Of a stretch of DNA of 64,000 nucleotides, positions 11,532-34,347 are shown piece by piece. Under the pieces are notes generated by a model. That model saw nothing but the letters and a program-made list of their open reading frames with translations, searched no databases and was not told the DNA's origin. How positions within the stretch are numbered: position 1 is the first letter of the stretch; each line of letters begins with the position of its first letter. The DNA is from Nitrospira sp. (lineage in GTDB: Bacteria > Nitrospirota > Nitrospiria > Nitrospirales > Nitrospiraceae). The stretch lies in NCBI GenBank assembly GCA_005116955.1, contig SWDI01000002.1, positions 733,316 through 797,315 of the forward strand, in the 5' to 3' direction. The position numbers and the translations under genes were made by a program.

Positions 11532-14500
11532 CTACTGCCAACTCGCGGCGAGTACCGTCTGCACATCCTGCGGCCGCTGATCGATCGCTTGCTCCCACGT
11601 AAGACCGGATTGCTGGGAGAACGCTGCCATGGCCTGGATCAGTTGATTGACCTGTGTGCTGAGCAGGATCTCTCCATTGCCTGCTTGAATCGTCTCAATG
11701 TGATTCGTCCTTCCGAGATACCAATCTTTTACCGTGACCTGATCTGCCGAGCCGTGTATGGCAAGCCGTAGGTCATTCGCCTGGCGGCTAAGGACGAGAT
11801 CAAGAGGATTGATAGTCGTCTCCAATAGAACACGGTCTTGGTTGCCTGCGAACACATCGACATCCTGAATGGTGTCCTGACCATCCCCTCGTGCGAACTG
11901 GTAGGTATCGTTCCCTGAATTGCCAACTAACGTGTCATTGCCGAACCCACCGATGAGTTGATCGGCCCCGCTGCCGCCTATGAGCTGATCGTTGCCGGCA
12001 CCGCCCAACAATCGATCGTCACCCGACCCACCGTCGAGCCGATCATGACCAGTTCCGCCATTCAGGAAATCGTTTCCACTCCCTGCGTTGAGGTTGTCGT
12101 CTCCCAACCCACCAAAGAGCCTGTCGTGACCACTCCCTCCAAAGAGGGCGTCATGCCCCATCCCACCGTCCAGCGTATCATCGCCGGAACCGGCGTCTAA
12201 AATATTGTTGCCACTGTTGCCCAACAACACGTTATGGGCTGAGTTCCCCATACCGTTGAGATCGGCCGAGCCGGTGAGGATCAGATGTTCCAGGTTCGGT
12301 CCGAGCGTGTAGGTGATGCTGCTTTCCACTGTATCGCTCCCTTGCGCAGCTAGCTCAGTCACCACATCGCCCGCTCGATCCACGATATAGGTATCATCGC
12401 CTCCCCCACCGATCATCACATCGCTCCCGAGACCGCCATCGAGTCGATCATGACCGGCTCCGCCCTTCAATGTATTGCTCGCGCTGTTGCCCAGGAGCAC
12501 GTTGTTCAAGGCATTTCCGGTCCCGTTGATCGCTGCCGTGCTGGTCAAGGTGAGATGCTCGAGATTGGCGCCAAGGGTATAGGTCATGCTGCTGTGCACG
12601 GTGTCGATCCCTTCATTGACGAGTTCGATGACGACGTCGCCAGGCATATCAACCATATAGGTGTCATTGCCCGTTCCGCCCTGCATCGTATCAACTCCCG
12701 TCCCTCCATCGAGCACGTCGTTCCCTTCCCCACCATGTAAGAGATCGTTTCCAGCCAACCCGCTCAACGTATCGTCGCCTCGGCCACCGGTCAACACATC
12801 GTTCCCCGGGGTGCCGACGAGTGTGTGTGGCAGGGGGCCAGAGATGGAAAGCATGAAGAGGTCGGTTGCACTGAGATGACCCTGGTCGGTGGCTGTGAGG
12901 GTAATCTGCAGCACCCCGGCATCGCCGGCGCCTGGCGTACCGCTGAACGTCCGGGTGGTCGGATCAAAGCTCAGCCACACCGGCAGTGGGCTGCCGTCAG
13001 CGAGAGATGCGCCATATGCGAGAGCATCTCCATGACTCACATCGGCATCGGTGAACGTCGTAGCGGGAACCGTAAAGGTAAAGAATGAATCTTCGGCGGC
13101 GGTCTGATCCAACACTGGAACAGCAACCATCGGTGCTTGGTTCGGAGGATACGAGTCAATCAGGTGCACCACGTTCCCATCGGTGAACTCCAGCGCTGAT
13201 ACAACCAGGGAACCGTTCGCACGACGGGGGTCAAAATTGGCAAGCACCAGTCGATCGGTCCCGCTGCTACCGACTTGGATGGTCAAGGTTCGCGCAGTCT
13301 CATCCTGCACAAAGCTCAAGTCGCTCTGACTGATTCCTGCCCCGAATTGAATTCGATTCCCTCCGCCGAGCAGCATCGTATCGTCGATGGTGTCAACGCC
13401 GTCGCCAACATTGAAGAGATAGGTATCGTGGCCCACACCACCCTGAAGGTGATCGGCACCACGCCCGCCGACCAACATATCGTCCCCCGCGAAAGCCGTG
13501 ATCCGATCCACCACGTTCGTGCCGGTAATGGAATCGCTGCCGTCAGTCCCGCTCAGATCAAACCCACGTCGAACAAGCTGGTCATACGATAAGACGGTCC
13601 CATCAGCAAATTGGAAGGTTTCGATCGTGCGCGACCCCAGCACATTATCTGGATCAAAATTAGAGAGATGCAGCGCGCCGCCGGTCGTGCCGACTCGGAT
13701 CAGAAAAGATCCCACATCCAAGGTCAAATCGTTCGGACTGATCCCCGGCCCAAATTGAATGGTATTCCCTTCTCCAGGCAGACTTGTATCATTGACCGTG
13801 TCGATGCCGTCACCGAGGTTATAGAGATAGGTGTCGTCGCCAGGGCCGCCGGTGAGCGTATCATTCCCGATTCCACCGGAGATGATGTCGTTGCCGGCCC
13901 CGGCATCCACGATGTCGTCGCCGCCGAGCGCGTTGATGACGTCGTTCCCCGCCCCGGTCGTGATCGTGTCATTCCCTTCTGTGATGGTCGGCCCGAAGAA
14001 ACCGGCAAGACTGGTCGTGATGCCATCCGCAAACGCCAGAGTCTCAACGACGAGCGTGCCGTTCGCCCCGGTAGGATCGAAGCTGGTCAATACCAGTTTG
14101 TCCGTCCCGCTGCTTCCCACTTGTATCGCTAGTGTCCGTGCGATGTCATCACGGGTGAAGGTCAGATCGTTCTTGCCGATGCCTGCACCGAACTGAATGC
14201 GATTTCCCTCGCCTACTGCTTCAAAATCTTCGATCGTGTCGATACCGTCCCCAAGATTGAATACATAGACATCATGGCCGCTGCCTCCAAAGAGTAGATC
14301 GTCTCCCGTTTCACCGAGCAGGACATCGTCACCCTGATCACCATAAACTTCATCGTCATCGGTTCCACCGTACACGGTGTCATTGCCTCCTCGTCCTGCC
14401 AGCCAGTCGCCACCGTCCAGCCCGCGAATCACATTATCAAGATCATTGGCAAGGATGGGATCGTAGAAGCTCGTCCCAGTAAAATTGTTGATCCGGCTCT

Positions 14501-17500
14501 CCAAGGTCACGGTATCCCAGATGGTTCCATCGGCAAAAGTCACTTGATCGATCTTATAGGGAGTCGGATGAGTTCGAAGAGAGGGGGTGAACCGGTTATT
14601 CCCACTCACGACACTGAAATAAGATGCCATGGTCAGTACGTCAGGCGCGTCCACCAGCGACAGGTTTAGGTCAAGTCCGATCTTTTCAAGCACCACATCA
14701 TTGGCGATAATTCCAGCTCCCAGTTGCACCGTATCAAGCGCCCCATTCAGATGATCAAACTCCACAATGGTCAATTGCCCGCTGCCCAGCCCGAACTGAT
14801 ACGTATCGGTATCCGCCGATCCTGTGAGGACTCCACCGAATTGACCAGGCCCCCAGGTTGTCCCATCAGCAAATCGCACCAGTTCAACGGCACCGGGCGC
14901 ATAGTAATAGGGATTCGAAGAGCCTTGCCGGGTGATACCCCCGGATGGACTCAGTAGTCCGCTAAAAAAACGCCAGCTCCCAGTACTAAAGGCCAGCGTG
15001 TAGTACCCCTGAATCATCAGTTGGTCATTTGCCCCCTGTCGTTGCAACACCAAATCGTCCCCGTTTCGAAACCAGGAGACGTCTTCCGGTCTCACGCCGG
15101 CTCCCATCTCAATCACATCCGACTGACTCGAGGAAATGAATGGATCGGTGCTCGTTTCAATGATCGTGTCACGCCCATCGCCGGCCGAGAAACCATAGGT
15201 ATTGCTGGCCTCTCGCCCATTCAACACATCATTCCCCGTGCCCCCGTCCATCCGTGCCCAACCCGTCAAGATATCATCGCCTCCCATTCCATGGAGATCG
15301 ACACCGAAGGTCCCGGACATAGTATTTTCCCACGCATTCCCAATGCCGACGCTTCCCCCCAACATGGTCAGATCTTCGAAATGGTCAAGAAGCGTATAGC
15401 TCACAAAACTCTCCACGAGATCGATCCCCTCATTTGCCCCTTCAATGACGTCATCATCTGCTACAGAAATAACGTAGGTATCGTTGCCTGCTCCCCCCAT
15501 GAGGGTATCCAGCCCAGCGCCACCATTGAGCACATCATCCCCTACCCCACTCATGAGAACATCATTCCCCTCACCACCAACGAGTTGGTCGTCCCCCTCT
15601 CTCGCCTCAAGGAGGTCATCGCCGGCACCGCCCTCTAACCGATCGTTCCCAATCCCACCATCTAGATTATCGTTCCCATCTTCCCCGAACAGAACATCAG
15701 TCCCGCTCCCGCCTATCAAATCATCATCACCCGCTCCGCCATAGAGCCCATCATTCCCCACGCCCCCTTCAATCCAGTCGCTCCCATCTGCGGCCATCAC
15801 CGCCGCAGCAGACACGTCCCCGCCAGAGAACAGATTGCGGTTATACCCTCCATATAACTGATCATCCCCGGCTCCCCCGATCAGAATATCTTCCCCTTCT
15901 CCACCGAAAATCGTATCGCCGCCTACGCCCCCATCCAACACATCATTCCCACCGGCCCCACGATGTTCTGTGGTATCGTAGGCACCAGTCTGCGCACTGA
16001 TCCGTAAATCCCCCGAGAGCGTGTCGTTGCCTTCTCCCCCATAGAGCGCGTCATGGTCGTCCTGACCGTAGAGTTGGTCATTGCCGGTTCCGCCTACCAG
16101 CACATCGTCGCCAACACCTCCATAGAGCAGATCATTGCCCTCACCGCCATCAAGCGAGTCGGCCCCGCCGTCCGCTGGATCGCCACCGACTGCAGCGGGC
16201 GTGTCCCCAATCAGCGTGTCGCTGCCCTTCCCTCCGATGAGCACGTCGCCGCCGGCCCCGCCGCGAAGCTCATCCGCATCATCCCCACCATCCAAATAGT
16301 CATTGGCACTAAATCCATGCCCCTCATCGTCGCCATTGTCGCCCTGAAGATAATCTCGGCCCGCCCCGCCGAGGAGCACATCCTCGCCGAGGTTGCCGAT
16401 TAAGGTGTCATCTCCCTCGCCAGCATCCAAGAAATCATCGTACGACCCGGTCCATACCTGTCCGACCTGCAATTGCACATCATCTCCCTCGAGATAGTCG
16501 TGACCAGCCCCACCGAACAAGTGGTCGGCCCCTCCTTGGCCGAACAGAACATCGTTGCCCTCCCCGCCATCCAATACGTCATCACCACCTTGCGCATCGG
16601 CAAACTCGCCGGACCCGTAGAGCCTATCCCCTTCGATCCCGCCAAACAGTCGGTCGTTTCCATCCCCTCCACTCAGGTCGTCACTGCCTTCCTCTCCGTA
16701 GATTTCGTCGTTGCCCTGATGGCCGATCACCTCGTCGTGGCCCGCCAGCGCATGGATCACATCGTTCGACAACCCGTCACTGCGATACACATCCCTCAGG
16801 GCAGTAAAGATGGGGCTGGTGCTCTGATCTGGATTGATCCGGAAAAACTGCGTCCTGGTGGGAAGCCCATTGTCATACGTAATGGTGTCAACTTCAAAGA
16901 GGCGAATGCCGAATCGCCCGCTTTGATAGTCCGTGATCGTCAGTGGCCCCGAGCCGGTCACGACCAGATTGTTGCCTTGCTTGGTCAGCGTGATGGTTCC
17001 GTCGGCACTCTGGAAAACATCGTTTGGATCGTCGGCCAGCCGCAGCCCGCCGACCAGCACCTTCCCATCGAACTCCACAGCCCCTCGTCCATCCGAATCT
17101 TCGATCGTGTCCGCGCCGTCGCCCGCGCGGATAATATACGTATCAAGCCCGTCTCCACCTCTCAGGATGTCATTGTCGAGCCCGCCATCAAGGATGTCGG
17201 CCTCCGCCCCACCTTCGAGTACATCGCTTCCTCGACCTCCGACCAGCGTATCCACTCCTGCCCCTCCGTCGAGCTGATCCCCACCAGCATCGCCTTGCAG
17301 ATAGTCGTTACCGGCGTTGCCGATGAGGAGATCGACGCCATCGCCGCCATACAAATGGTCCGCCTTGCTTCCCGACTCGAAACGATCTTCATCAACGGAA
17401 CCAAACAGGAATTGCTGCGTGTTCGCAGGATCGTCCGCCGTGGCAATTTCATAGGTCTGCGTGGCGTCGAAAAAATAGATCGATCCGGATGACGTGGCTA

Positions 17501-18485
17501 AGTCCGCCTGGTTCAGCGCGATTTTCTCCTTCAGAAAGGCGGCACGATCATCGAGATAAGAAGCGGTGAGTGTTCCCACACCTGTGGACGCATCATAGAG
17601 ATCCAGATCGCCATTGGTGTTGAACTGGGAGTAGAGCGCGTTTGTTCCGGACTCGGAATTGGTCGTCAGAACAAAAGGATTCAGTTCTGTTAAGGCATAC
17701 CGATAGGCCAGACCTTCAGACGTATCAGCCTCTGCACGAGCAAGAAGTGTGGCACGATCAAGCTCTGGATCGGTGAGATCCGTGATTGTCAATACAAGGC
17801 CTTGGGCCTGCATGGTTGCCACACGGCCCGTGATTTCTTGGATAGCGGCGTACATTATGTTCCGATTGGCCAGATCCCCAAAGCCACCCACACGGGAATT
17901 GATGGGCAGTGGGTCCGTAATGGTCAATGCAGGGTCGCGAAAGAGCTTGCGGAAGGCATCAACCGTCTTTTCGAGCGAATCTCCTTCCGCGACGCCCGGG
18001 GTGTTTAGTGGCGCGACGATATCCGCCTTTGAGTTGGATGAGGCTTTGATGATCAGTTCAGCACCTGCCGGCCCGTATCGGAAATCGATCGTCTGGATTA
18101 GCTCCTGAACCGCGAGCGAATCCACGATGAGCGCAATTGAATGCGTATTAGCGCTTTCAGTAACGCTCGGGAACGGCAGACCGGCGATTAGGGGTTGTCC
18201 CTCGATAAAGACTGGAATGGCCGGTGCATGCACACCTGAGTTGGCAACAAACTGCAGATCATCGGTCGTCGCCTGCCCATAGAGCTGGCTAATCTTCGCA
18301 AACGGCCCTTGATCCTGCACTTCTCCGGGCGATTGAAGAAACGTGAGACCACGTTGGACTAAAAATCGACTGGGTAGCAGCTTTTGCCCACTGATACCGC
18401 ACATCATTGTAGAGACTCGTCGTTCCTTGGTCGAACGGATGCCAGCTTGTGCCTTGCGCATCATAGAGGGCTTTGGCTTGATCAT
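11532..18485 (-). CDS. Giant RTX calcium-binding secreted protein (C-terminal part of a frameshifted lipase-RTX protein)
   Basis: More than 2,200 residues dominated by hemolysin-type nonapeptide repeats (GGxGxDxLx, e.g. [20 protein letters not shown]). Several blocks of the hemolysin-related module lie between arrays ([26 protein letters not shown]), with one cadherin/Ig-like domain near 12830-13140 ([20 protein letters not shown]). The C-terminus lacks Cys and ends in a helical tail, as in type I secretion substrates. RTX repeats fold on binding Ca2+ outside the cell. The first 20-40 residues from the ATG at 18485 are probably not native: the real N-terminus is the lipase frame at 18289-19185, joined by a one-base shift at 18361-18365. 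No type I secretion genes are in the window. Confidence 0.88.
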
Positions 18486-19185
18486 AGACGCTCGTGCGTG
18501 GGAAGGAGGCGAGGGCGTTATCTGGATTGTCTAAAACGGATCGGAAATATGTCAGCATGTCCTGAATTCGACTCTCTTCTGCAGAGAGCCCCGGCACAGC
18601 TCCTGGCACGTGGCCTCGACCCGCACCATTGAAAATGTAGGTGTGATTCACTTCGCTGGCATGGAGCTCGGTAAATATCGTGGCCAGGTGTCCGCCTAGC
18701 GAGAAGCCGGTCACATTGAGCACAGCCCCAGTTGGCAGTTTCTCCTCTGCCTTAAGAGACTGGTAATACTGTTCCATCGCGGCCAGCTGCCCAAAAGCAA
18801 ATCCAGACACCCCAACCTCGGCATCAGCCCCGAACAGATCTCGCTCTCGATCACCGCCTTCTGACGCAGGAGCCGATTCCGTGCTACGGAACGACAGGGT
18901 GTAACTGTTCGTCTGCGTATCGAACATTAAGGTCGCCGAGAACCCCGTGGCATCGTTGGCATGGTGGTCGAGGATTTGATAACGCTGAGTGAAGGCTTGG
19001 GCCTGGAGATCAGTGAATTGGGTCTTGCCTGTGAACTGGTCAAGTTGAATTACACGGCGATCATTGCTTCCGTCTATAAGGACTTGTTGTAGGGAAACAC
19101 CCTGCACCACAAATTGATCAAGGTAAGACTCCGCGGCCATTTGCTGAAGGGCAAAATCAAGCCAGGCCTTAATATTAGTTGACAT
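18289..19185 (-). CDS. N-terminal lipase (alpha/beta-hydrolase) domain of the RTX protein, cut off by a frameshift
   Basis: The first ~275 residues form a class-3-lipase-like hydrolase domain. The nucleophile elbow is [11 protein letters not shown] (Ser in GFSLG), and a catalytic Asp/His would lie further on (Asp in [11 protein letters not shown] or LDNPDN; His in SWHPFDQG). After [11 protein letters not shown] the frame runs on to a stop, while the other frame continues into the RTX repeats. Removing one base from A5 at 18361-18365 on the plus strand joins them into about 2,550 residues. The start overlaps the lipoprotein stop by 11 bases. It is probably an extracellular esterase/lipase displayed or released with its RTX stalk. 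Confidence 0.82.
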
Positions 19186-20137
19186 CTTTCTTCTCCTTCA
19201 CTTCGGACGAAAGAGGCTTCAGAACTTCTTGTACAAACTTGAAGGTAGACTTGTCCCCTCGATTTGGACAACTCGGTCCAGTCATCCACCAAACGCCAGT
19301 GAAGTTATTACGAACAAAACCTGTTCGCATGTACCCACGCCGGATGGCCAGGATTTCGTTCGTTTTCACATCAAGGACTATGAGCTCACCGCCAACAATT
19401 CCTAGCTCTCTATCGTGCGGGCGATTGATTCCCCGCCAGGTGTAGCCATAGCGGCTCTTGATATTAGACACCGTGGATTCCGCGACAACATAAGGAACAA
19501 ACACTCCTTGCCCATTAATTGCTGTTTGATATTTCCTTCTGGGGTGTGCATTCTCGTCTCGGTAATACCGTCGATATCGTTCATCCTCACTAGCTGCTTT
19601 TGAGAAGGGCATCTCCAAGAACTGATACCTGCCAGTAGCTGGTTGAACGTATGTGTCCTGCACGAGATAGGATTCATCGGTTGTGTGCCCATAGGGATCT
19701 TCAAGAAAATACAGGTGCTGCAGTTCATCATCTGTTGCGCGCTTTCTCGGCCTCATCATGTACAGCCCATCCACATTCTCCACAGTCTTGTAGATAAACT
19801 CCCCCGCTTCCGTCTTACAGAGATGGTCAAAGTATTGGTCTGGTGTCATCCCCGGCTTGTAGCCACTGTCGGCTGGTACAGGATTGGGAATCTTAATCGA
19901 GTGGGCGAATCGCCCTTCCTCCGTCGTGAGTGGATCGGCAGGCTTGAGCTTCAAAATATCGCAAGCAGTGTCGTTTGGTTTGAGCTTCACTTTGGCGCAG
20001 TTTTCAGAAAATTCCTTCATCGACCGGTTGAACCGCTGCCCTGGTGTCTCCTCATTATTGAAAGCCCCAGCTGCACACCCCGTCACCATTGCCAATACGA
20101 GACCAACGACAGCTATTCCACTCCGGCTCGATTTCAT
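19175..20137 (-). CDS. Lipoprotein of unknown function in the lipase-RTX operon
   Basis: About 320 residues beginning MKSSRSGIAVVGLVLAMVTGC, a clear lipoprotein signal with Cys after VTG. The mature part is hydrophilic with many Tyr, Arg and Asp, and has no domain I recognise. GGGAGG lies 10 bases before ATG 20137. An upstream ATG at 20185 overlaps the previous gene stop (ATGA) and would add 16 residues, so it remains possible. Its place between the DUF3467-like gene and the RTX gene suggests a job in export, anchoring or folding of the RTX protein, but the sequence does not prove it. Confidence 0.72.
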   Translation of the reverse strand: MKSSRSGIAVVGLVLAMVTGCAAGAFNNEETPGQRFNRSMKEFSENCAKVKLKPNDTACDILKLKPADPLTTEEGRFAHSIKIPNPVPADSGYKPGMTPDQYFDHLCKTEAGEFIYKTVENVDGLYMMRPRKRATDDELQHLYFLEDPYGHTTDESYLVQDTYVQPATGRYQFLEMPFSKAASEDERYRRYYRDENAHPRRKYQTAINGQGVFVPYVVAESTVSNIKSRYGYTWRGINRPHDRELGIVGGELIVLDVKTNEILAIRRGYMRTGFVRNNFTGVWWMTGPSCPNRGDKSTFKFVQEVLKPLSSEVKEKKDVN

Positions 20138-20181
20138 CGTTGACATGCCTCCCAAATGAGTTCGCAAATTCTTTCCCGTCG

Positions 20182-20505
20182 TCATATTTTCGGCTTCGGT
20201 TTCTGTGCTGCTTGCAACCCCACCAAGATCTGCTGAATCTGCTGCTGCAATCGCGCCAGGGCGCTCACATCCATCGCCACGCGGGTGACGAGGTGACCAT
20301 CCAAGCCTTTGGGTGCAGCCTGGCCGTCCTTGGCCGTCTCCGCAATAGCAGCAAGGAGCGCCGGTTCGATGAAGCCAAAATCCAGATAGGCCATCCCCTG
20401 TGCGACGCCGACGTTCGTATAGTTCGCCGCGCGGGGATGGGCGGAAGACTCGGAGAGTTTTAACCGGACATTCAACGCAATGGTGGCGTCTTTGGATTCG
20501 CTCAT
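20182..20505 (-). CDS. DUF3467-like small protein
   Basis: A 107-residue protein. Its layout fits DUF3467: a polar start, the ANYTNVGVAQGMAYLDFGF segment, then VTRVAMDVSALARLQQQIQ, where the family has a beta-strand followed by a helix. The likeness is from memory of the pattern, so it is moderate. It has no signal peptide and is probably cytoplasmic. It is the first gene of the operon with the lipoprotein and lipase-RTX genes and is coupled to the next frame by ATGA. Its function is unknown. Confidence 0.6.
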   Translation of the reverse strand: MSESKDATIALNVRLKLSESSAHPRAANYTNVGVAQGMAYLDFGFIEPALLAAIAETAKDGQAAPKGLDGHLVTRVAMDVSALARLQQQIQQILVGLQAAQKPKPKI

Positions 20506-21343
20506 ACACTCACACTCCTTGGCTGTGGATGAAGGACAGAGCGGATGACAACCGCATGGGAGAATCCTCTATGCGTGTGGGTTCCTAATGAGTTAGTGCG
20601 TGAGTCTAAGAATCCGTCGATTTGCTGTCAAGGACCCCTTCACCCCGATGCGTCATCCAGAGCCGGCCGGATGGACTCTGCACGAAAGTGCCTAAGGGTT
20701 GTAACTAGACAAAAGAGGGGGAATAAGGCCCGAGGCTAAACGGCCGACAAGATTACCGCCCAGTCCATACACCGTGCGAGAGACTCGTCTCCCAGCCGAC
20801 GTCTATTTCCTCGGCTGGACACAACCGTGATGAATCGATGATGAGTCCTACTGACTGGGAAACCTCAGGACAGGACATCTTGCGTCATCAACCAGAAGGT
20901 GCGACAGGCATTGATGAGGTGAGAGGAACGAGGAGGTGAGAGAACACAGACTCCCAGTATCGCTCCTTTGTATCAGACGTGACCAAGGGGCTCGGTCGCT
21001 CAAAGCACCAGGGATAGAGGCAGCACCAGCCGTAGCGAGAGCGAGAGGCCGACATGGCCCTCACTTCCATCCCACCAGTGGGTGGAGCCCATGGCGGCAA
21101 GTGGCAAGATTGTGCGTACTCATTCACTATGCATGATTCAAGATCTGAACCTATTTTCACGAAAGCCGGGGGGCCTTCACGAATCCAGATCATTTTCGTA
21201 TTGATTTCGTTGTTAGACCGTCAGTATGTTATCGACATGTGGCCAGGAGACCCAACGTGCCTGCGACCTTGAGCCTGACGCTGTTTCTACCCTGTCGCAG
21301 ATAAGACAACCTCACCCCAACCCGTTCCAGTTGAAAGGAGACC
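20506..21343. other. Intergenic region without a recognised gene
   Basis: About 840 bases between the RTX operon and a thioredoxin-like gene. Frames of 60-100 codons exist but none has a signal, a motif or a ribosome site. The far end holds GAAAGGAGACC at 21333-21343, the ribosome site of the next gene. Short purine-rich direct repeats (GAGGTGAGAG-like) occur near 20918-20945. Confidence 0.4.
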
Positions 21344-21583
21344 ATGATGAAAAGCAAAGCGATTTTCTATCACGCAGGATGCCCGGTGTGCGTTGCAGCC
21401 GAGCAGAGCGTGGCCAACGCTCTGGATCCGTCGAAATATGACGTGGAACACGTCCATCTCGGCACGAACAAGGCGCGGGTGAATGAGGCGGAAGCAGCCG
21501 GGGTCAAGTCAGTACCGGCCCTGGTGATGAATGGCGCAGCGTTTCACATTAACTTCGGTGCCGGTATTGATGCACTAAAGTAA
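21344..21583 (+). CDS. Small thioredoxin/glutaredoxin-like protein with a CPVC motif
   Basis: A 79-residue single-domain redox protein. The active site CPVC lies in FYHAGCPVCVAAEQSV, directly after the first beta-strand, and SVPALVMNG supplies the cis-proline loop of the thioredoxin fold. The length fits NrdH/glutaredoxin-like proteins. It should exchange dithiols in the cytoplasm, since no signal peptide is present. A strong ribosome site (AAAGGAG) precedes the ATG and a clear terminator follows at 21615, so it is a one-gene unit. Confidence 0.82.
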   Translation: MMKSKAIFYHAGCPVCVAAEQSVANALDPSKYDVEHVHLGTNKARVNEAEAAGVKSVPALVMNGAAFHINFGAGIDALK

Positions 21584-21614
21584 CCGATTCAGTCTACTGA
21601 CTGCATCAGGATCA

Positions 21615-21650
21615 GGGGGGCCTGCCGTTCGGCACGCCCCCCCTTTTTTT
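21615..21650 (+). terminator. Rho-independent terminator
   Basis: The G-rich arm GGGGGGCCTGCC and the C-rich arm GGCACGCCCCCC close on a GTTC loop, followed directly by seven T residues. It ends the thioredoxin-like gene. Confidence 0.85.
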
Positions 21651-21720
21651 AGAAGCCCACGGGGTAGTGCATGTTGGTGAAGCGCGAGAGCAGCGGGAAC
21701 CCGGGGGTCGCGCTGCTCTC

Positions 21721-21984
21721 CTAGTGGACTGTAACACCTATTTATAGACTATACTCGTGTTCATGAACAACACGATGGTTCTCACGAAACGGGAACGGAT
21801 GGAACTCACCAGACGCACGAGGAGCCGGACCGGGCGTGCCGAAACCGCTCGGCGTGCCCGCGTGATTCTGCTCCTGGCTGAGGGGGCGACATGGGATGTC
21901 GTGTGTCACACCTTGGCGTGTAGCCGCAGCTTTGTGGCAACCTGGAGCCAGCGGTTTACCGCGGAACGGGAGGGCTATCGATGA
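21721..21984 (+). mobile_element. IS630-family left end with truncated transposase
   Basis: The end sequence CTAGTGGACTGTAACAC starts at 21721. CTAG is the known insertion target of IS630 elements, which duplicate TA. A transposase start follows about 40 bases in. The same 17 bases occur inverted at 36297-36313. Only about 260 bases of the element remain; the sequence breaks off 6 bases before the first CRISPR repeat. Confidence 0.8.
21763..21984 (+). pseudogene. IS630 transposase, N-terminal fragment
   Basis: About 73 residues. TGRAETARRARVILLLAEG and [16 protein letters not shown] form the N-terminal helix-turn-helix that IS630 transposases use to bind their ends. The DDE catalytic domain (more than 200 residues) is missing. 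The frame ends at a TGA at the junction with the CRISPR array, so it cannot be active. The start may be ATG 21763 or ATG 21775 (MVLTKRERMEL). Confidence 0.8.
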
Positions 21985-21990
21985 CCAACA

Positions 21991-22168
21991 GTTTCAATCC
22001 TCGCCCGCCCCGAAGGACGGGCGCTACCCCCGACGGGAGACGGCACGACCGCGCAGTGCTCGTTTCAATCCTCGCCCGCCCCGAAGGACGGGCGCTACAT
22101 TGTCAGCGGACACCTTCAGCAACGGCGGTGGGTTTCAATCCTCGCCCGCCCCGAAGGACGGGCGCTAC
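21991..22168 (-). CRISPR. CRISPR array, 3 repeats and 2 spacers, type I-C
   Basis: Three identical 37-base repeats lie at 21991-22027, 22062-22098 and 22132-22168. On the plus strand they begin GTTTCAATCC and end GGGCGCTAC. The spacers are 34 bases (22028-22061) and 33 bases (22099-22131). On the minus strand, the direction of the cas genes, the repeat ends GGATTGAAAC and contains an 8-pair stem closed by a cUUCGg tetraloop, as expected for Cas5c processing. The leader should lie toward cas2, so the 22132 repeat is the newest and the 21991 repeat the oldest. I-C repeats are usually about 32 bases, so 37 is long. Confidence 0.95.
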
Positions 22169-22348
22169 TCCACTACCTCACCAAGGCCTGAAAACAACTG
22201 TTTCAGCCTCAGTTTTCGCGAACCTATTGGCAATTCATTCCGACTGATCCACAACAACATGATTCGATTCATCCAAGTCATTGAAAAATAACCACGGCTC
22301 GACCGGCGCGATCCTCCCGTGAATGAAGCACTGCCCCAGGTTCGCGCA
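22169..22348 (-). promoter_or_regulatory. CRISPR leader region
   Basis: 180 bases between the cas2 stop and the first repeat in the transcribed direction. It is more A/T-rich than its surroundings, with runs such as TATTTTTCAATG and CAGTTGTTTTCAG on the minus strand. No frame fits a gene. It is assigned as leader from position only; a precise promoter was not identified. Confidence 0.6.
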
Positions 22349-22639
22349 TCACAAAACCAGTGGCTCCTCGAAATCCACCTTCCCATCTAATCCATACACC
22401 TGCACATGTTTGTCCCTCGGCTCAGTCAATCGATAGACCCGAAGACTGTCTTCGGTCTTCTCGATAATGTCCAGCAGCCTTCTGATCACCTCCTCGAATT
22501 GAGACTCGTTGACCGAACACTCAAACACCGATTTCTGCACCCGTTGTCCAAAATTCTGACAAGCTTGGGCGACTTTCCTCAGCCGTCTCCGCCCAGCGAC
22601 AGTTTCAGTCGAGACGTCATAACTGATCAACACATTCAC
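22349..22639 (-). CDS. cas2: CRISPR-associated endonuclease Cas2
   Basis: A 96-residue Cas2 of normal length. It begins MNVLISYDVSTET, with the conserved Asp at the end of the first beta-strand (YDVS), then the RRRLRKVAQACQNFGQRVQ helix and SVFECSVNESQFEEV. It pairs with Cas1 to capture and insert spacers. It lies 9 bases after cas1 and is the last cas gene before the leader. Confidence 0.96.
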   Translation of the reverse strand: MNVLISYDVSTETVAGRRRLRKVAQACQNFGQRVQKSVFECSVNESQFEEVIRRLLDIIEKTEDSLRVYRLTEPRDKHVQVYGLDGKVDFEEPLVL

Positions 22640-22648
22640 GTTGCCATC

Positions 22649-23680
22649 CTATCGATACAGAAAGGGTGGATAACTCTCCAGATCGCCGCGCAGCACCCGC
22701 GCGAGCAACCGCGCCTGCACATGCGGCACCAAACCCAACGGCATCTTCTGATCCAGCACAGGATGCGTAATCTCCTCCTGCTTGCGCTTTTGATAGGCGA
22801 CGATCACTTCCTTGCGCGCGGCATCCTCCATCTGCACCGCGCCGCCAGACCGTTTCGTGAAATCCTTTGCGCTCACTTGTCGCCGGTTGATCAGCGTGAG
22901 CACCAGCCGATCGGCCAGCACGCTCCGCAACTCTTCCATGAGATCCAGCGCCAATGCCGCCCGCCCCGGTCGCAACGCATGGAGAAATCCCATTTGCGGA
23001 TCGAGCCCGACCCCTTCTGCAGCGGCCACACAATCGTTTATCACCAGCGCATAGAGAAACGACATGAGCGCGTTCACAGGGTCGGTCGGTGGGCGACGGT
23101 TGCGGCCATCCATCTTGAAGGTCTGGCGATCTTCTTTAACCATACGGTCGAAAGTAGAGAAATAGTTTCGAGCCGACTCACCTTCGATGCCGCGCACCGT
23201 GTCTAGGTCTTCGCATTGGGGAAGCCTGGTCACGGCATTACCAAGCGCGTCAGCTGTTTTTCTCAACGCGTCTGCATCCGCTGGATCGTCAGCCTCTCGC
23301 GCTCCTCGCAGGACGATCTGGCGGGAGTTTTGAATTTTCCCACCGACAATATTCCGCGCGATAGCCAAAGTCTGTATCGGATCACCCATCGCCTTATGCT
23401 GTGCGCACCGGAGCAACACATTGCCACTGACCGGCCCTTCCACTCGGGCTTTGAAACGGCCATTGCGATCCAGTAACACAACGAACCTTCCATCTTCCGC
23501 GCAGCGTTGCATAGCAGCCGGACTCAGCATGATGTCACCGAAACAAACCACCCCGCCGAGGTGGTGGAACGGCACCTGTAATTTCGTCTCTTTGTTTACT
23601 TCCACCCTCAGCGTGTCATGATCGGCCCGCAAGTAGGCGCCTTCTGTCGTGACATAAAGCGTATTCAGCAATTGATGCAT
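22649..23680 (-). CDS. cas1: CRISPR-associated integrase Cas1 (type I-C)
   Basis: 343 residues when started at ATG 23680 (MHQLLNTLYVTTEGAYL), the usual I-C Cas1 start and length; GAGGGG lies just upstream. An in-frame ATG at 23746 would overlap cas4 and is unlikely. Conserved features include LHALRPGRAALALDLMEE with its catalytic His and Asp, SFLYALVINDCVAAAEGVGLD with the Glu region, and GGVVCFGDIMLSPAA near the N-terminus. It catalyses spacer integration with Cas2 and Cas4. Confidence 0.96.
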   Translation of the reverse strand: MHQLLNTLYVTTEGAYLRADHDTLRVEVNKETKLQVPFHHLGGVVCFGDIMLSPAAMQRCAEDGRFVVLLDRNGRFKARVEGPVSGNVLLRCAQHKAMGDPIQTLAIARNIVGGKIQNSRQIVLRGAREADDPADADALRKTADALGNAVTRLPQCEDLDTVRGIEGESARNYFSTFDRMVKEDRQTFKMDGRNRRPPTDPVNALMSFLYALVINDCVAAAEGVGLDPQMGFLHALRPGRAALALDLMEELRSVLADRLVLTLINRRQVSAKDFTKRSGGAVQMEDAARKEVIVAYQKRKQEEITHPVLDQKMPLGLVPHVQARLLARVLRGDLESYPPFLYR

Positions 23681-23687
23681 GAACCCC

Positions 23688-24311
23688 TCACGGGTGAATG
23701 GTAAAGAGGTCACGCACAACCGCCGAAGCCCGCCGGCCTTCATCAATGACGGACGGCATGCACGACTCCTGAAGGGAGCACTTGGTACAACGCCGATCGT
23801 TCACCGGCGGAGGGAGCTGCTTATCCGCCAGCATACGGCGAATCGCCTGGATTGATTGAACAACCTGCGCTCTCAACTCTGGTGTGCACTCCACCTCACG
23901 GCGTTTGCGCGAACTGTGGTGATAGATCGCGCCGCGCGGCACAGCGTGGCCCGTCATCTCTTCGAGGCACAGGGCCTGGGCACACAGCTGTAGATCATCA
24001 TGCTCCTGCTCGCGATGCGGCCCATGCTTGTACTCCACGGGATAAACCGTCTCACCGTGAAACTCCACCACATCGGCTTTCCCGATTAGCCCCAGAGCCT
24101 TAGACCACAATGGAAGCGCTCGCTCAATGCGTACCCCCGCCTGCTCCTCCACGACAGGCTCATCCACCCGCTTATGCACCGCCTGCCCACGCAGCGTGTA
24201 GAGATTCTCGTCGAACGTCTGCTCGACATGAATGAGCGCACACTGGCGTGGACAGTAACTCCAGTGCTCCAGCGCCGAGATCATGATGGGGTCGTCCTGA
24301 TCGGATGCCAT
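23688..24311 (-). CDS. cas4: CRISPR-associated exonuclease Cas4 (Dna2-like)
   Basis: About 207 residues. The N-terminal Cys is in ALEHWSYCPRQCALIH and three more Cys are in RRCTKCSLQESC, together the [4Fe-4S] ligands. The RecB-type nuclease core shows in VVEFHGETVYPVEYKHG (Glu and Lys of motifs II/III). Cas4 trims prespacers and selects PAM-containing ends in I-C systems. The start is ATG 24311; a TTG three codons earlier is in frame. Confidence 0.95.
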   Translation of the reverse strand: MASDQDDPIMISALEHWSYCPRQCALIHVEQTFDENLYTLRGQAVHKRVDEPVVEEQAGVRIERALPLWSKALGLIGKADVVEFHGETVYPVEYKHGPHREQEHDDLQLCAQALCLEEMTGHAVPRGAIYHHSSRKRREVECTPELRAQVVQSIQAIRRMLADKQLPPPVNDRRCTKCSLQESCMPSVIDEGRRASAVVRDLFTIHP

Positions 24312-24324
24312 TACTATCAAACCT

Positions 24325-25248
24325 TCAAACCTTTTTCGTAAAGGTCACGCCCGGGAATCCCTCAATCGGTCCTTCACCAGGAAAGTTGACTGAATAGTCC
24401 ATGAATCCACGAGGGGGACCGCTATCTCCATTCGACCGATGGACTTGGATGAGGTCGAACAACTTATGAGCTGGAGCATTCCCTAGTTCCGAATCATGTT
24501 TGAACACATATAAGCCACGCGTCGCCATTTCGCTGCGAGCCGCAGAACGATCATGCTCGAACATCGTTGAGAGTGCATCCCAGAGCACGCCAAGGTCGTC
24601 ATCAGAGAAACCAGTTTGCTTGGCCAGAAAAGACGAGACAAATCCATGTGCCCTGTAAAGCCCATACGGAACAGTAAACTTGCGCCCCATGGTCCGATTA
24701 TCCCCCTGTTGCTTTTCCGCCTCCGCATCGGTGGTAACTGCCATACGAGTGATCGAGTGTTCCGAAGCAACGATAGGGTCAAGAGACCGCGCAAATGTCA
24801 GCTGAATGGGGCCACGCACTTGACCGCAATTAACACCTGTGGACATCACAGCTCCGAATGTTCGTACGTCGAAAAAGTTGGCACACATCCACTCTCTAGC
24901 ATCATTAACGCCATCACCACCTTTGCGCTTCTTGTCGTCGCCTTCGAGGATGTCCTTACGACCGATAGCCACATATGCACGCTCATGCTGCTTATTGAGG
25001 ACCGCTTTTTCTTTGACGTAAATCTCGTACCGCTTCTTTCCACCCTGAAGATTTTCCGTGGACTCAGCCTGGTCCTTGGTAAGAGCAACAAAGTTCCGAA
25101 TTTTCCGCTTTAGGCACACGTCCGTCACGAGTCCTTGTCCAGTTTCAGCATCCTGCCGTGGCAAGTTGCCTGCATCTGGATCGCCGTTAGGGTTGCCGTC
25201 CTTCACATCAAATAGCAGCACAAAGTCGTAGCGGTTCTGGATGGCCAT
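24325..25248 (-). CDS. cas7c: Cascade backbone protein Cas7 (Csd2, type I-C)
   Basis: 307 residues. It opens [20 protein letters not shown], the highly conserved Csd2 start, and carries RRKIRN-like and [11 protein letters not shown] motifs of the Cas7/Csd2 RRM fold. Several copies polymerise along the crRNA to form the Cascade filament. It sits 2 bases after cas8c and 4 bases before the earliest cas4 start codon, as one transcript. Confidence 0.96.
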
Positions 25249-25250: not shown

Positions 25251-27038
25251 TTAGTCTCCCTGTTTCGCTTCGGTGGATTTTGAGAACAACGCTTGCCGCT
25301 GGTGATAGTAGCCAATCGCGAAGCGACCCTGGTCCGCAAGTCTTAGGTGAGGCGGGAAATCACTGATGCCATCCACAATTTCGCTGATGAGACGTTCCAG
25401 ATTCACCCTCCGACCAGGATTCTCCAATTTGGCGAGATGATGATTCTTCAGTTTCATGAGATTAGAAAACACCGTTACCGGCGTGCTCGAAGCCGCACCG
25501 TAGAAGCGCTCACGAATTGTGGTATTGATGCCAGGGTTTGCTTCTTCCTGGACTTTCTCCAGCACAGCAAAGAGACGACCCAAGCGGTAACCAGAATTGG
25601 TATTGGCATAATCGAGTGACACAGTGACCTCCTTTTCAGTTGTCCCCACTAGACGCTGCTGCCTATTGAGACAGGCCTTGATCAGTGCGGAGCGGGCATA
25701 TGTAACGTTCTGAACCAGTTTGCCAGTGCGCGTATCTCGTTTTGCCTGCTCCGCGCGTATCCGACGAACTGCTCCTTGTAGAAGTGTCGATGGATAAGGC
25801 AGTCCTGCAACAATAGCCTGCATCACTTCGCCTCCGAGGTTCGGAGGGATATTCTCGCTCTTCCCCTGTGTGGCAATGGCAACAAGAAGCCTGAACACGG
25901 AGAGGAACGGCGTCTCAACCGCTGGCCGGACAATCTCCAGGTCGTCGAAGTGCTGCTGAATAGTCTTTGCTAGACCTGCCACAGTTCCTACATGCCAGAA
26001 GCGGATGGCAATTCGCGCAGCGTTCGGGCTAAGCCCGAGTACAAAGAAGCGTGTGTGCTCATCCTTAACTGGCGCAACTCCCTGGTGAGGAGCTTCGAAG
26101 AGCGCTTTCAACGCTCGGGCATTGCGGTCTGGGTCGTCTTTCGGCGGGTCTGCAAAAATATCGGAGAAGTGGTCTTCTAGAGGGCTCGGCTTATCGGCCC
26201 AGAACACAGTCGAAGCGTCACCGATCTGAATACGGTTCCGGCTGTCTCTTGCAAGAAGATGGTTCAGTGCCGTGGTGTATGCGAAGGCGGTACGTGTGCC
26301 AACCGGAGCGTTGGCGCCTTGTTCCTTGCCCCACGAATTAAAGGCGGGCAAATTGAACGACACGATATTGGCTCCGGATGTTTGAGCGCCCCATACACCT
26401 TTAATGGCAGGATGTAGGCGTTCGACTTCCGTCGCTTTCCCTGTGACAAGGCAGATGCCACCACTATTCTGCACACTCGCGGCTTCGGTCAACGCCTCAA
26501 TTACCGCTGGACGCTGACAGACCAATTCGAGGTCGCACTGTAACCGAAACGTCATATTCGGGTTAGCAGTTTTTATCTCCTTCCACGCTTCAGAGAACCG
26601 TTCCAAATCAGCAGGTCTTGTACGGTCGAAGAACTTCAGGACTGCTCGCACACCTTCATCGGCTTGAACGCTCTCCGGCAAGGCCCTGATGGCATCAACG
26701 AATGCGGCATGCATTTCATTCAGTCGGTCTCCGTAACCCTCTTCCTTCCTTTTGTTTTTCTTGTCGGCCAGCTTCTTCTCGTCCGGCAATCCGAGGACAT
26801 ACTCAGCATTACCCCAGAGTATATTGGCAGCTACATTGACAGACTTCTTTGCTGCTTGGGGAATGAGATAGTTCTTTGCGCGCTTCTTTTTCCCATCGGG
26901 CGTGCGAGTGTCCTCAATCTGAACTGCTGAACCGTTTTTGTTCAGCTCGATCACGAATGGAATTTCCTTGTTCTCGAACCCCTCGTGCGGCAGGTCCGGT
27001 TTTCGCTGGTAGTAGTCGTACAGTGCCTGGAGGATCAT
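25251..27038 (-). CDS. cas8c: Cascade large subunit Cas8c (Csd1, type I-C)
   Basis: 595 residues when started at ATG 27038 ([17 protein letters not shown]), the standard Csd1 start, overlapping the cas5c stop by ATGA. It has the [18 protein letters not shown] segment and [20 protein letters not shown], well-known Csd1 features, and the C-terminal helical region [13 protein letters not shown]. It recognises the PAM and holds target DNA; in I-C an internal start usually also yields Cas11c from the 3' end. An in-frame start upstream at 27062 is less likely. Confidence 0.95.
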
Positions 27039-27772
27039 CCCCGCACCTCCTTGCTCTCCCATGCCGGAATGTTGATAACGCCACTATTCAAACGGGCTTG
27101 GAAGAAACGAGGCTTGGGGTCTGCCGGGTTGCTGTAGTCCAAGTCGTACAGCATCCAGCCCAGATCCTTCGTTTCTCCAATCGGTTTCGGTTCTGCCTTC
27201 ACGTCCTCTACCAATCGAAATGCACAGGCGAACTCGCGGCAACCGAGGTACGGCTGATTGACACACTGCCCACGGGAAGCGCGCCGCTCGAACATACTCA
27301 TGAACTTGGCTGGATTATTGTCGGGTAATGCCAGCAGATCATCTTCGCCGCGATTGAGGGGGGATTTTGAGAGATGCGAAAAATTAGACTTGTGAACGCT
27401 CGGGTCGCGGAGGTCAAAGGTGGCGTGGATGCGGTAGGCCACATCCCGAAGGAATAGCCCAGCGCGTTGTTGGCGCTCGGCTTCGACGTATAGTCCTAAG
27501 TCGCCGGAACCAGCACTCATCGCAGTCTGTACATTTCTGCTGGAGGCCACGGCTCCGACTTCATTCCGCCTGAGACTGATCCACTTAATGGGTTTCAGCA
27601 CTTCGATCTTCGTCACTCGCCAGCGGATGGCTGGTTTCCAAACAATAGCTTCAAACACCGCCCGTGCAGCCGATGGGGTCATCACATCGTAGGAGACACG
27701 CTCGACCTTCATCTCTGGGCGCGTAAAGCAGGCAAAGTCTCCCGACACTTCGAGACAATACGATTTGGCCAT
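27035..27772 (-). CDS. cas5c: Cas5c, pre-crRNA processing subunit (type I-C)
   Basis: About 245 residues starting MAKSYCLEVSGDFACFTRPE. It carries KVERVSYDVMTPSAARAVFE and AIRWRVTKIEVLKPIKW, all hallmark Cas5c sequence. Type I-C lacks Cas6, and Cas5c cuts the repeat hairpin itself. The start ATG 27772 follows GTGAGG. An in-frame start at 27787 lies inside the end of cas3. Confidence 0.95.
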   Translation of the reverse strand: MAKSYCLEVSGDFACFTRPEMKVERVSYDVMTPSAARAVFEAIVWKPAIRWRVTKIEVLKPIKWISLRRNEVGAVASSRNVQTAMSAGSGDLGLYVEAERQQRAGLFLRDVAYRIHATFDLRDPSVHKSNFSHLSKSPLNRGEDDLLALPDNNPAKFMSMFERRASRGQCVNQPYLGCREFACAFRLVEDVKAEPKPIGETKDLGWMLYDLDYSNPADPKPRFFQARLNSGVINIPAWESKEVRG

Positions 27773-27779
27773 ACAATCC

Positions 27780-29996
27780 TCACCCAATCAGTTGTTCAGC
27801 ATTCAGTTCATTGCCCAGGGTCACTCCGACTTTGTCGTCATATAACGTGCTGACTGCCTGCGCGAAGATACCTGGCCAAATTTCATCGACTTCGCCAGAT
27901 TGGATCAACTTGTCCACAACGCGGCGAGGCAGGTTCACGCTGTATCGTTGCAACTTGCGCATGAGCCACCGTTCCGGCCCATCCTTCTTGAGCTTTCTAA
28001 TCAATTTTTGACTTTCGCCATACCACACAAGGATGGCTTGGCTTTCTATGTCGTCGATCAGTTGGAACTTCTCGGCGGCGGTACGGAACTGGATCTTCAG
28101 CTCTCGTGCATCTGTCGTCAGCAAGTCGTTGATGCCCTGCTTATCGAGCGAGTCCGCCTTCAAATAGAAATGCTCAAAGTAGCGGGTGAAGAGTTTTCTT
28201 GCCATGGGATCGCTCGTGCTGCCACTCAGCAAACTAACGGTCGTTTGTTCGGCACGACGCAGTGTCCCCGGCGGCGAATCTTTGGGCGGAACAAACACAA
28301 CGACTTTGCCAAGAGCTAAAACCCCTTCCCTATTACAGCGACCAGCTGCCTGGGCGATGGAATCCAGCCCTGAAAGGGCGCGATATACGACAGGGAAGTC
28401 GATATCTACCCCAGCTTCAACCAATTGAGTGCTGACGACCTGCGTAGGGAATTTCTTTTCCAACCGCTCCCGAATATCTGCAATAACTTGAGAGCGGTGT
28501 TCTCCACACATGGCAGCCGACAAGTGAATCGTCCCTTCTGGCATCAGTCGGTGCAGTTCGCGGCAGTCTCGACGGGTATTCACGACGGTAAGCACCGACT
28601 CCTGCAGTATGAGCTCTGCTGCAATTTCTTCCCATACTCGTCGAGCATGGAAGTCCAGAGGCATTTCGACCTTCACCCGAGTAAGGTCACGATACAACAC
28701 ATCTGGGTCGGCCATGATCTCGCGCACACCATCCAGACCCCTGAATGTCCAACCAAAGCCTTCGCGTGAGTTCAGCGCCGGCTGAGTCGCTGTGGAGAGC
28801 ACAAAGGTGACCCCATAGTGCCGGACTAACAGATTGATAGTGTCCAGGATTGGTTGCAGGAACTCAGGATTGAGCAGTTGCGCTTCGTCCAATACCACAA
28901 CGCTATTCACGATGTTGTGAAGCTTGCGACAACTTGCAGTCCGTGCGGCAAACAGCGATTCAAAAAACTGGACGTTGGTTGTGACAATTATGGATGCATC
29001 CCAGTTTTCCGTTGCGAGGCGGCTTTTCGCAGACTCCTTCTCGGGATCGAGATTACTGTGGTGTTCAACGACGTTTTCACCAAAGATGTCTCGAAAGATC
29101 CCTGCCGTTTGCTCGATGATACTGGTGTAAGGAATGACGTAAATGATACGCCGCTTCTGATGGTGAACTGCGTGCATAAGCGCGAACGCCAGGCCGGAAA
29201 GTGTCTTGCCACCACCGGTCGGAACCGTGAGCGAAAAGAGCCCCGGCTTGTCGAACGCTCGTTCGCGGCACTGGCGCAGAACTTCAGCACGCACGCGATT
29301 CACAGGCGTTGGCTTAGCCTCGGCAGTGAACTTTCTCATCCGCTCGTCAAATCTCTCCAGAAGCTGTTCGATGGAGGAAAATGACCCGCGAGGCTGCGCT
29401 TTATTGCCATCCATAAACTTCTCTGTATCAAGAAAGTCTCCATCAACGAGGCAAGAGAACAGCATTCGCAGCCAGAGCGCGAAGCCTTCTTCGCCCCCAA
29501 GTGGTTTCGTGGCCGGAGTGATGGCAGAATGAAGCACGTCTACGGGAATAGTCACGCTTGAAATGGCCTGAAGGTGTTGCATATCCTCCAGCCGTTGAGA
29601 TAGCGATGAGATGGCGTGCTCGTCAGAGTGCCAGTCCGGCAAGCCAGCGTGATGTCCTGCGATGAGATAGGCCAAGAGTCGCCCCTTACCACCGAGTTTC
29701 TCGACAGCATGGAGAGCTCCCGCAGAAGAGTGATTGACCCGACCCTTGCCACCCTCGATGTGTGCCTCAGGATCTAAGCCGCTTCCATGGGCGATATAAT
29801 TTTGGAATGCCGAGGAGTATTTCCCGAGGTCATGCCAGAGCCCTGCGAGTTGCCCCCATTCAGCATGCCCAAAGGACGAAGCAAACTCACCGGCAAGATC
29901 ACCCACCGCGCGCAAATGGTCTTCAAGATCGTGAATCGCAAATGACCCGTCGTCGTTCCGCCGCACATGGGCAAGGTATCTCTTCGAGTTCGTCAT
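27780..29996 (-). CDS. cas3: CRISPR effector nuclease-helicase Cas3 (HD + DEAD-like)
   Basis: 738 residues. The N-terminal HD nuclease shows WHDLGKYSSAFQNY and AGHHAG. The SF2 helicase has Walker A VPTGGGKTLSGLAFA, DEAQ box VVLDEAQLLN, motif III VLSTATQPAL and motif VI AAGRCNREG. It is recruited by Cascade and degrades target DNA. It is the first gene of the seven-gene operon. The start ATG 29996 has only a weak ribosome site (GGAG 11 bases away). Confidence 0.96.
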   Translation of the reverse strand: MTNSKRYLAHVRRNDDGSFAIHDLEDHLRAVGDLAGEFASSFGHAEWGQLAGLWHDLGKYSSAFQNYIAHGSGLDPEAHIEGGKGRVNHSSAGALHAVEKLGGKGRLLAYLIAGHHAGLPDWHSDEHAISSLSQRLEDMQHLQAISSVTIPVDVLHSAITPATKPLGGEEGFALWLRMLFSCLVDGDFLDTEKFMDGNKAQPRGSFSSIEQLLERFDERMRKFTAEAKPTPVNRVRAEVLRQCRERAFDKPGLFSLTVPTGGGKTLSGLAFALMHAVHHQKRRIIYVIPYTSIIEQTAGIFRDIFGENVVEHHSNLDPEKESAKSRLATENWDASIIVTTNVQFFESLFAARTASCRKLHNIVNSVVVLDEAQLLNPEFLQPILDTINLLVRHYGVTFVLSTATQPALNSREGFGWTFRGLDGVREIMADPDVLYRDLTRVKVEMPLDFHARRVWEEIAAELILQESVLTVVNTRRDCRELHRLMPEGTIHLSAAMCGEHRSQVIADIRERLEKKFPTQVVSTQLVEAGVDIDFPVVYRALSGLDSIAQAAGRCNREGVLALGKVVVFVPPKDSPPGTLRRAEQTTVSLLSGSTSDPMARKLFTRYFEHFYLKADSLDKQGINDLLTTDARELKIQFRTAAEKFQLIDDIESQAILVWYGESQKLIRKLKKDGPERWLMRKLQRYSVNLPRRVVDKLIQSGEVDEIWPGIFAQAVSTLYDDKVGVTLGNELNAEQLIG

Positions 29997-31531: not shown

Positions 31532-32518
31532 TCACCGTATCGCACAAATCTTTTCGGCTTCTTGTTTGACCACCGTGCGCAACGAGTCCGGCCGCACAAC
31601 CCGGACACCACTCCCAAAGCTGAGAATCCAGCCGACGAGTTCCCGGCTGTCGGCGATGGTGATGGTCATCCGCAACTTGCCGCCAGGCACCCGTATAAGT
31701 TGTTGACTCGGATGCCAGACACGATCTTTCGCCCAGGCCGCCGTCCCTTTCTCAAAGATCAGCTCCACCTCGATGCGTGGTCCCCTCATGACGGTCAGCG
31801 AGTCTTCGACGAAAGCCTCGAAGTCGAAATGCAGCGGGATTTGATACGGACGATCGGTGGGCGTCACAGATTTGATCCGCTCGACGGCGAACATGCACGG
31901 TTCTTTCCGGAGGTGACAATAGCCAATGAGATACAGGCCGCCGGAAGCATACCAGAGCCGGTAGGGATCGACCTCCCGCCGGGTCACGCGCCCGCGTGCG
32001 GCAGAATCGTAGCGCATCTGGATCCGTTTCTTCTCGGCAATGGCTTGAGTGACACGCTCGACGACCTCACGGTGCCGTTTGTATCGCTTATGCGGACCAA
32101 GCCCGACTGAAAATGTACCTTCAAGCTGCTGGACCAGCACAAGTCCTTCAGGCGGCAATGCCGCCGAGGCTTTTGTCAGGGCCGATTGCAACGAGGCATG
32201 GAGGGCCGTCCCTTCAAGGGGAGCGATGAGCCGGCGGCTCAGCGTGAGGGCCATCAGCTCGGTGGGCGAGAGGCGCAACGCAGGCGCTTGCCGCACTCCG
32301 TCGAGAAGTTTCCACCGTGTCCGCCCATCGACTCGCTCGGTCAGCAGCGGATACCCAGCCGATTCAATCGCGTCCAGATCTCGGCGCAGTGTTCGTGGAT
32401 GGCGAGTTGCGGAAGAATCCAGTCCATCGGCGAGTTGTTCCAGCGTGAGTCCGTGCCGCGACGATTCCAGCTTCTTGAGCACGATGAGTTGCCGAATGGC
32501 TTGGTCATTGCGCGGCAT
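31532..32518 (-). CDS. WYL-domain transcriptional regulator
   Basis: 328 residues. The N-terminal winged HTH is LTLEQLADGLDSSATRHPRT, followed by LRRDLDAIESAG. The WYL domain spans about residues 140-230 with REVDPYRLWYASGGLYLIGY (WYA instead of WYL). The WCX extension follows (LSFGSGVRVVRP). WYL proteins often regulate CRISPR-Cas and other defence loci by sensing nucleic acid or nucleotides. It lies 1.5 kb from cas3 on the same strand, so a role in cas control is possible but not shown. Confidence 0.9.
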   Translation of the reverse strand: MPRNDQAIRQLIVLKKLESSRHGLTLEQLADGLDSSATRHPRTLRRDLDAIESAGYPLLTERVDGRTRWKLLDGVRQAPALRLSPTELMALTLSRRLIAPLEGTALHASLQSALTKASAALPPEGLVLVQQLEGTFSVGLGPHKRYKRHREVVERVTQAIAEKKRIQMRYDSAARGRVTRREVDPYRLWYASGGLYLIGYCHLRKEPCMFAVERIKSVTPTDRPYQIPLHFDFEAFVEDSLTVMRGPRIEVELIFEKGTAAWAKDRVWHPSQQLIRVPGGKLRMTITIADSRELVGWILSFGSGVRVVRPDSLRTVVKQEAEKICAIR

Positions 32519-33008
32519 GGCTTATCCTGAAAACCGGCGAGAGAAAGCCAGAACGGGGGAAAAACCGTTGTATGAATCCGACAAGAAGGACACTGTCGAG
32601 AGGGATCCCTGCAACGACGTGTGGCATCTATGGAATAGCGCCATGGCGAGTCCTGGTCGTTCGCTGCGGGCTCACAACTCTGGGGGAGGCTTGTACGCTG
32701 ATTTGCCGCCTGAGGCAACCCCCTCCTTCGCATCCGTTACAGGGTGCGCCTATCGGCGCGTGGACCTAGAGTACGCCCAGTCGGGCACCAAAGGCCTATG
32801 AACTTTTGATGCGTTACGTCAAAGGGACTGTCCCGCGACTGAGAATACGTTCCGCTAGGTAGGAACAGTCGTCATGAAAGGAGGCCGCGTCAATTCTGCT
32901 GGAAAACACGTGGAAGGGGGTTGTTTTTTCTATTTCACGCGTACAAAATATCCCCCCGTTGTCAGTGCGGACCTAATCATCAACCACCATAGAGAGAGGG
33001 GCATAACC
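32519..33008. other. Intergenic region upstream of a secreted protein
   Basis: About 490 bases with no gene I can support. An in-frame extension of the next gene to 32874 lacks a signal peptide at its start and is unlikely. GAGAGGGGC at 32994-33002 is the likely ribosome site for the GTG at 33009. Confidence 0.4.
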
Positions 33009-33425: not shown

Positions 33426-33498
33426 CCGTTGCCACAACGATGTGGGCGGGACTCCCCTGCCCATGTCGTTGTCCCGACACTCACCGACATCCTCCTTA

Positions 33499-33645: not shown

Positions 33646-33717
33646 AGTAGGTCCTCCGTTCTGCCTGTAGATGATGAGCCCTGACGTGTCGCACAGACCA
33701 AGCAGGATCGTAGATAG

Positions 33718-34170: not shown

Positions 34171-34347
34171 AGGCCCCTTCACCATACAACCCGTCCAGCA
34201 CCAGGTCAAGAAACCACACACCCAAAACCCACCACGTGCGACCGTCGAATTTGACGACTGGGGCGGGCACTCTCACAACACCGGCGCCATCAGCGGGTAT
34301 GGGTTAGCGCTGATCTGTTCACAACACGGAAACTAGCCCCCAGTCGG

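Follow-up and report, generated by a model that had tools for sequence, protein, structure and literature searches.

A type I-C CRISPR locus of Nitrospira with an unusually short array, its distal end probably fused to an internal part of an IS630 element

How does a complete cas operon come to be accompanied by just two spacers, and what has the insertion sequence (IS) fragment beside its array to do with it? The stretch of DNA that was analysed (the window, 64,000 nucleotides) carries on the minus strand, in the order of transcription, cas3, cas5c, cas8c, cas7c, cas4, cas1c, cas2, the leader and the array (Table 1). The Cas proteins scored far above the cut-offs of the I-C models, with 620 bits for the Cas8c/Csd1 signature against a curated cut-off of 218.65; Cas5c, Cas7/Csd2, Cas1c, Cas4, Cas2 and Cas3 of the I-C gene set were present, and within the operon (22349-29996) all genes were assigned to Cas proteins other than Cas6. 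The two spacers beside a complete operon that the earlier note had described were thus confirmed, with three exact 37-nt repeats and the full I-C gene set on the minus strand. Its placing of the trailer end at 21984 was also right, since the minus-strand end of the repeat is ATTGAAAC and cas2 and the leader occupy 22169-22639. When the whole 3.65-Mb genome was searched for the repeat with up to three mismatches, the window array was the sole site. The nearest named loci (Cas1 76-93% identical) were nearly all from Nitrospira or Nitrospirota MAGs, and cas1 and the array are 480-490 nt apart in nearly all relatives. With every cas gene open, a conserved leader and undamaged repeats, spacer acquisition and interference would both be possible; judged from its sequence, the locus is an ordinary, apparently intact I-C CRISPR system with an unusually short array. 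A DUF6036/AbiEii-like nucleotidyltransferase gene, possibly part of a toxin-antitoxin system, lies on the opposite strand between cas3 and the WYL regulator (30118-30975).

Table 1. Features of the island and its flanks (window coordinates)
Feature	Position	Strand	Basis or remark
Trailer-side chromosomal flank, conserved	14377..20722		Present in G068 (without CRISPR of this kind) and G067
Segment common only to window and G058	20723..21162		In G058 contiguous with 20188-20722
Dispersed cassette, about 530-560 bp, Thioredoxin_3 gene (21347-21583) and terminator	21157..21718	+	Blocks in relatives
IS630-family element, 5' end; end sequence TAGTGGACTGTAACACC, transposase HTH part	21719..21976	+	Homology
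14 nt between IS break and oldest repeat, TGTTGGTCATCGAT	21977..21990	-	Sequence comparison
CRISPR array	21991..22168	-	Three exact repeat copies, repeat search, Rfam match
Repeats, 37 nt each	21991-22027, 22062-22098, 22132-22168	-	Exact copies of GTAGCGCCCGTCCTTCGGGGCGGGCGAGGATTGAAAC
Spacer, older, 34 nt	22028-22061	-	
Spacer, newest, 33 nt	22099-22131	-	
Leader	22169..22348	-	87% identity to G067 leader
cas2	22349..22639	-	Profile match
cas1c	22649..23746	-	Profile match
cas4	23688..24320	-	Profile match
cas7c (Csd2)	24325..25248	-	Profile match
cas8c (Csd1), effector class A	25251..27062	-	Profile match, class comparison
cas5c, presumed repeat-processing nuclease	27035..27787	-	Profile match
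cas3	27780..29996	-	Profile match
WYL-domain regulator, CRISPR-associated type, upstream of cas3	31532..32518	-	Domain match
cas3-side flank, conserved	32916..36120		Synteny with G130

The repeat had been considered unusual for I-C in its length and in its UUCG loop, and neither view held up. A repeat length of 32 nt is often quoted for I-C. The window repeat matched the Rfam family RF01322 (CRISPR-DR9), itself a 37-nt model, with 55.5 bits (gathering cut-off 45), and a de novo array scan returned 37-nt repeats in nearly every I-C locus whose Cas1 is 52-93% identical, from hosts that span Nitrospirota, Bacillota, Thermodesulfobacteriota, cyanobacteria and others; 33-nt repeats were found at two loci only. 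A length of 37 nt is thus the norm in related-Cas1 loci across phyla. In an alignment of 36 distinct repeats, 96% of the cells of the 9-bp stem were paired and eight of its nine pairs varied on both sides, a level of pairing and covariation reached in 0 of 500 shuffles, while the 3' handle was nearly invariant and the loop sequence varied freely among relatives. The repeat has, with its covarying stem and unpaired 3' handle, the hairpin structure of I-C. In I-C it is the base of the stem and the 3' end that are important, not the upper stem and loop (CRISPRmap, PMC3783184), so that no special role need be assigned to the UUCG loop. The repeat lineage is standard for its Cas1 clade. Transcription of the array would run toward 21984, each repeat folding into the 9-bp hairpin, and the Cas5c cut would, by analogy with the family, leave the 11-nt handle AGGATTGAAAC.

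The spacers, which the earlier note had proposed to compare with phage and plasmid databases, led to no target. Neither had a protospacer with up to three mismatches in 175 Nitrospiraceae genomes besides the array itself, and exact 20-22-nt spacer cores were absent from IMG/VR. Phage matches were weak (E 0.3-0.4), and similarity in the plasmid search was confined to cas1/cas2 and repeat-like sequence. As no protospacer was found, no target and no PAM can be assigned.

The chromosomal site was then defined by its flanks. In G130, a genome that lacks this CRISPR locus, the flanks 20188-20722 and 32916-36120 are only about 900 bp apart, which makes 20723-32915 an island in a conserved chromosomal location. 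On the trailer-side flank, 11532-18485 encodes a protein of 2317 aa in which Pfam recognizes 27 stretches of RTX calcium-binding repeats. The closest orthologous island is that of G067, with cas4, cas1 and cas2 95%, 94% and 96% identical, a similar leader (Table 1) and an identical repeat. The end of its array and the shared flank (window 20722) are 22-36 nt apart, with neither IS nor thioredoxin-like cassette there; the 1.27 kb that separate array and flank in the window are missing in G067.

Next to the array, the IS630-family fragment that had been noticed earlier was recovered with its 5' end and HTH part. Like other members of the family, it starts after a TA (about 21719) and has an HTH transposase start; the window keeps about its first 258 bp, and the transposase ORF from 21763 retains about 69 of 352 residues. 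Full-length 352-aa homologues exist in relatives, and the DDE part is missing from the fragment through truncation. IS homology ends at 21969-21976, which leaves a gap of 14-21 nt before the repeat, not the 6 bases first given. The 14 nt TGTTGGTCATCGAT would be a leftover either from a third spacer or from the trailer. On its other side the IS adjoins the thioredoxin-like cassette, of which 92-93% identical blocks occur in G130, G062 and G126 in other surroundings. The cassette has nearly the same left boundary, CACGAAAGCCGGGAGGCC, in several Nitrospira genomes and may be mobile.

This other flank tells where the IS had landed. G130 has a copy with neither array nor IS, in which the match to the window stops just a few bases short of the IS end; the other flank of the IS being the cassette, the element landed beside the cassette and not in the array. 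As it lay originally outside the array, the junction between IS and array is a later breakpoint. A scenario close to that of the earlier note, in which the IS630 landed directly in the array and later lost its distal half along with the older spacers, has a precedent in the family, where transposase-like DNA of about 1.3 kb separates 25 repeats from 8 further ones in G040, but is very improbable here, the intact IS end being flanked by cassette DNA that G130 has without array or IS. Insertion into a spacer or a repeat was rejected on the same flank. We likewise give little credence to an assembly or binning chimera at the junction: IS630-family copies occur repeatedly in this genome and repeats promote misassembly, but the contig measures 976 kb in an assembly of 8 contigs (99.84% complete), the junction lies within a short IS fragment, and both flanks are in syntenic order with G067, G068 and G130. 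By sequence comparison, there is good support for a rearrangement junction that lies within the IS630 and beside the array.

Whether older spacers went with this rearrangement depends on the array itself. Array ends were compared in 19 relatives with arrays traceable to the end, as the earlier note had suggested for array lengths; the window has three repeats and the relatives 5-79 (two spacers versus 4-78, a few counts being approximate because of gaps and diverged repeats), and its array is the shortest of the 20 followed to the end. The terminal repeat was intact in eight of the 19 (G067, G037, G038, G044, G072, G056, G106 and G066), degenerate in nine, and ambiguous or cut in two (G101 and G113). 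The oldest repeat, whose identity with the others had been taken as a sign of truncation, is indeed exact, but with eight such relatives a perfect last repeat is no proof of it. A short stub followed by the flank is not unique to the window either, because in G072 and G106 the same trailer-side flank starts 24-26 nt past an intact last repeat. No spacer was common to the window and the related loci, and the 14-nt remnant was absent from all compared relatives, so that spacer loss was not seen directly. The proposed deletion of older spacers and most of the IS therefore stands as regards the junction inside the IS; the loss of older spacers, deduced from the shortness of the array, is likely but unproven. 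Two other arrays, both from G040, are also irregular: in L043 (G040:C6), an I-C array, some 1.3 kb that begin like a transposase gene stand between 10892 and 12181 of the array strand, with repeats on both sides, and in L165 the first nine repeats have one sequence and the remainder another (3 differences), with a sharp switch within the array.

The main rival to the loss of older spacers with the junction is a collapse of the array by recombination between identical repeats, followed by refilling, both independent of the IS, with a later IS-side rearrangement that took the trailer only. All three window repeats are identical, and a review (PMC8047081) describes how recombination between the leader-adjacent and an unpolymorphic terminal repeat collapses arrays, which are refilled later; moreover, G067 and G066 have arrays of five repeats with a perfect terminal repeat, and an IS search of both genomes found no copy of the window's IS630. 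Such a history is nevertheless rather unlikely, as it needs a second event beyond the IS junction, itself required anyway, and as the 14-21 nt from repeat to junction are shorter than a spacer, which is expected for a break within a spacer. We therefore consider it probable that this I-C island locus, complete in sequence, underwent a rearrangement that joined the distal end of its array to the inside of an IS630 beside the thioredoxin-like cassette. The event, most simply a deletion, removed the 3' part of the IS and the original trailer, as the comparison shows, and probably older spacers too.

Taken by itself, a short array that is cut at its distal end and belongs to a common type is ordinary, and the comparison with relatives is the more useful result. 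G067 combines near-identical adaptation genes and the same leader, repeat and site with a different I-C effector cassette, and this Cas1 clade is accompanied by at least four I-C effector lineages, A (that of the window), B, C and D. Cas8 proteins of different classes share 24-26% identity or can barely be aligned, and their Cas5 proteins share 24-37%. PADLOC and NCBIfam models place class C in I-C, which disposed of it as another subtype, and class D was rejected as an unfamiliar variant, the PADLOC Cas8c model PDLC01562 scoring 486 bits. On the Cas1 tree of 32 loci, in which many forks are weak and the starred branches alone force several changes per large class, effector class changed 18 times, versus 17.8 with shuffled labels. 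For the 25 rows whose repeat is known, effector class required 13 changes (13.6 shuffled) and repeat type 11 (15.2 shuffled, 0 of 200 as low). Effector class is thus without phylogenetic signal on the Cas1 tree and repeat type has one.

The junctions of these cassettes were located on both sides. Among 16 non-class-A loci, 10-11 retain the beginning of a class-A cas3 about 60 nt or less upstream of the incoming cassette; these stubs run from about codon 7 to codon 26-68 with 70-88% nucleotide identity, L039 and L040 being the weakest cases. Stubs stand directly before the first effector gene in L044, L052, L058, L059, L060, L067, L157, L159 and L161. On the other side, window homology to G067, G066, G087 and G110, which have other cassettes, stops at the cas4 start (24287-24299). 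The stubs seem to mark past cassette exchange, and the joints of the exchanges appear to fall within the beginning of cas3 and at cas4. We tentatively suggest, as a possibility short of an even chance, that the first 25-70 codons of class-A cas3 serve as a favoured junction when whole I-C cassettes are exchanged: promoter and cas3 start would be retained, a class B, C or D cassette would attach within about 60 nt, with the other junction at the cas4 start, and the same adaptation genes and repeat would then be served by divergent effectors. If so, the short array of the window is a further sign of an island rearranged at both ends. In G067, two cas3 5'-end fragments enclose a DUF1016/YhcG nuclease gene (L153:3537-5242), and similar fragment pairs surround other small genes in L173 and L063. 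The Nitrospira I-C islands offer a natural experiment, one repeat and adaptation module with several very different effector sets. It opens to testing the questions of whether one identical repeat is processed by distant Cas5c enzymes and of how cassettes are exchanged, among them the question of whether cas3 stubs supply promoter and translation start.

Compared with known systems, the window has the Cas3c, Cas5c, Cas8c, Cas7c, Cas4, Cas1c and Cas2 of type I-C (Dvulg) in the usual order and its hairpin repeat with an 11-nt 3' handle, and differs in the repeat of 37 nt, the norm of its clade, rather than 32, and in having just two spacers. From CRISPR-DR9 it shows no notable difference, all 37 positions of the model being matched. 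It is established that effectors are exchanged in situ while adaptation module and array stay fixed (PMC6452270, PMC12669027), and the changing cassettes of the Nitrospira loci follow the same pattern, so that they are a striking case of a known process. The open-access literature yielded no description of cas3 stubs, nor did the parts consulted of these two papers. What distinguishes the Nitrospira loci from the exchange described there is that four main I-C lineages are exchanged without phylogenetic signal and that class-A cas3 stubs lie at most of the swapped junctions.
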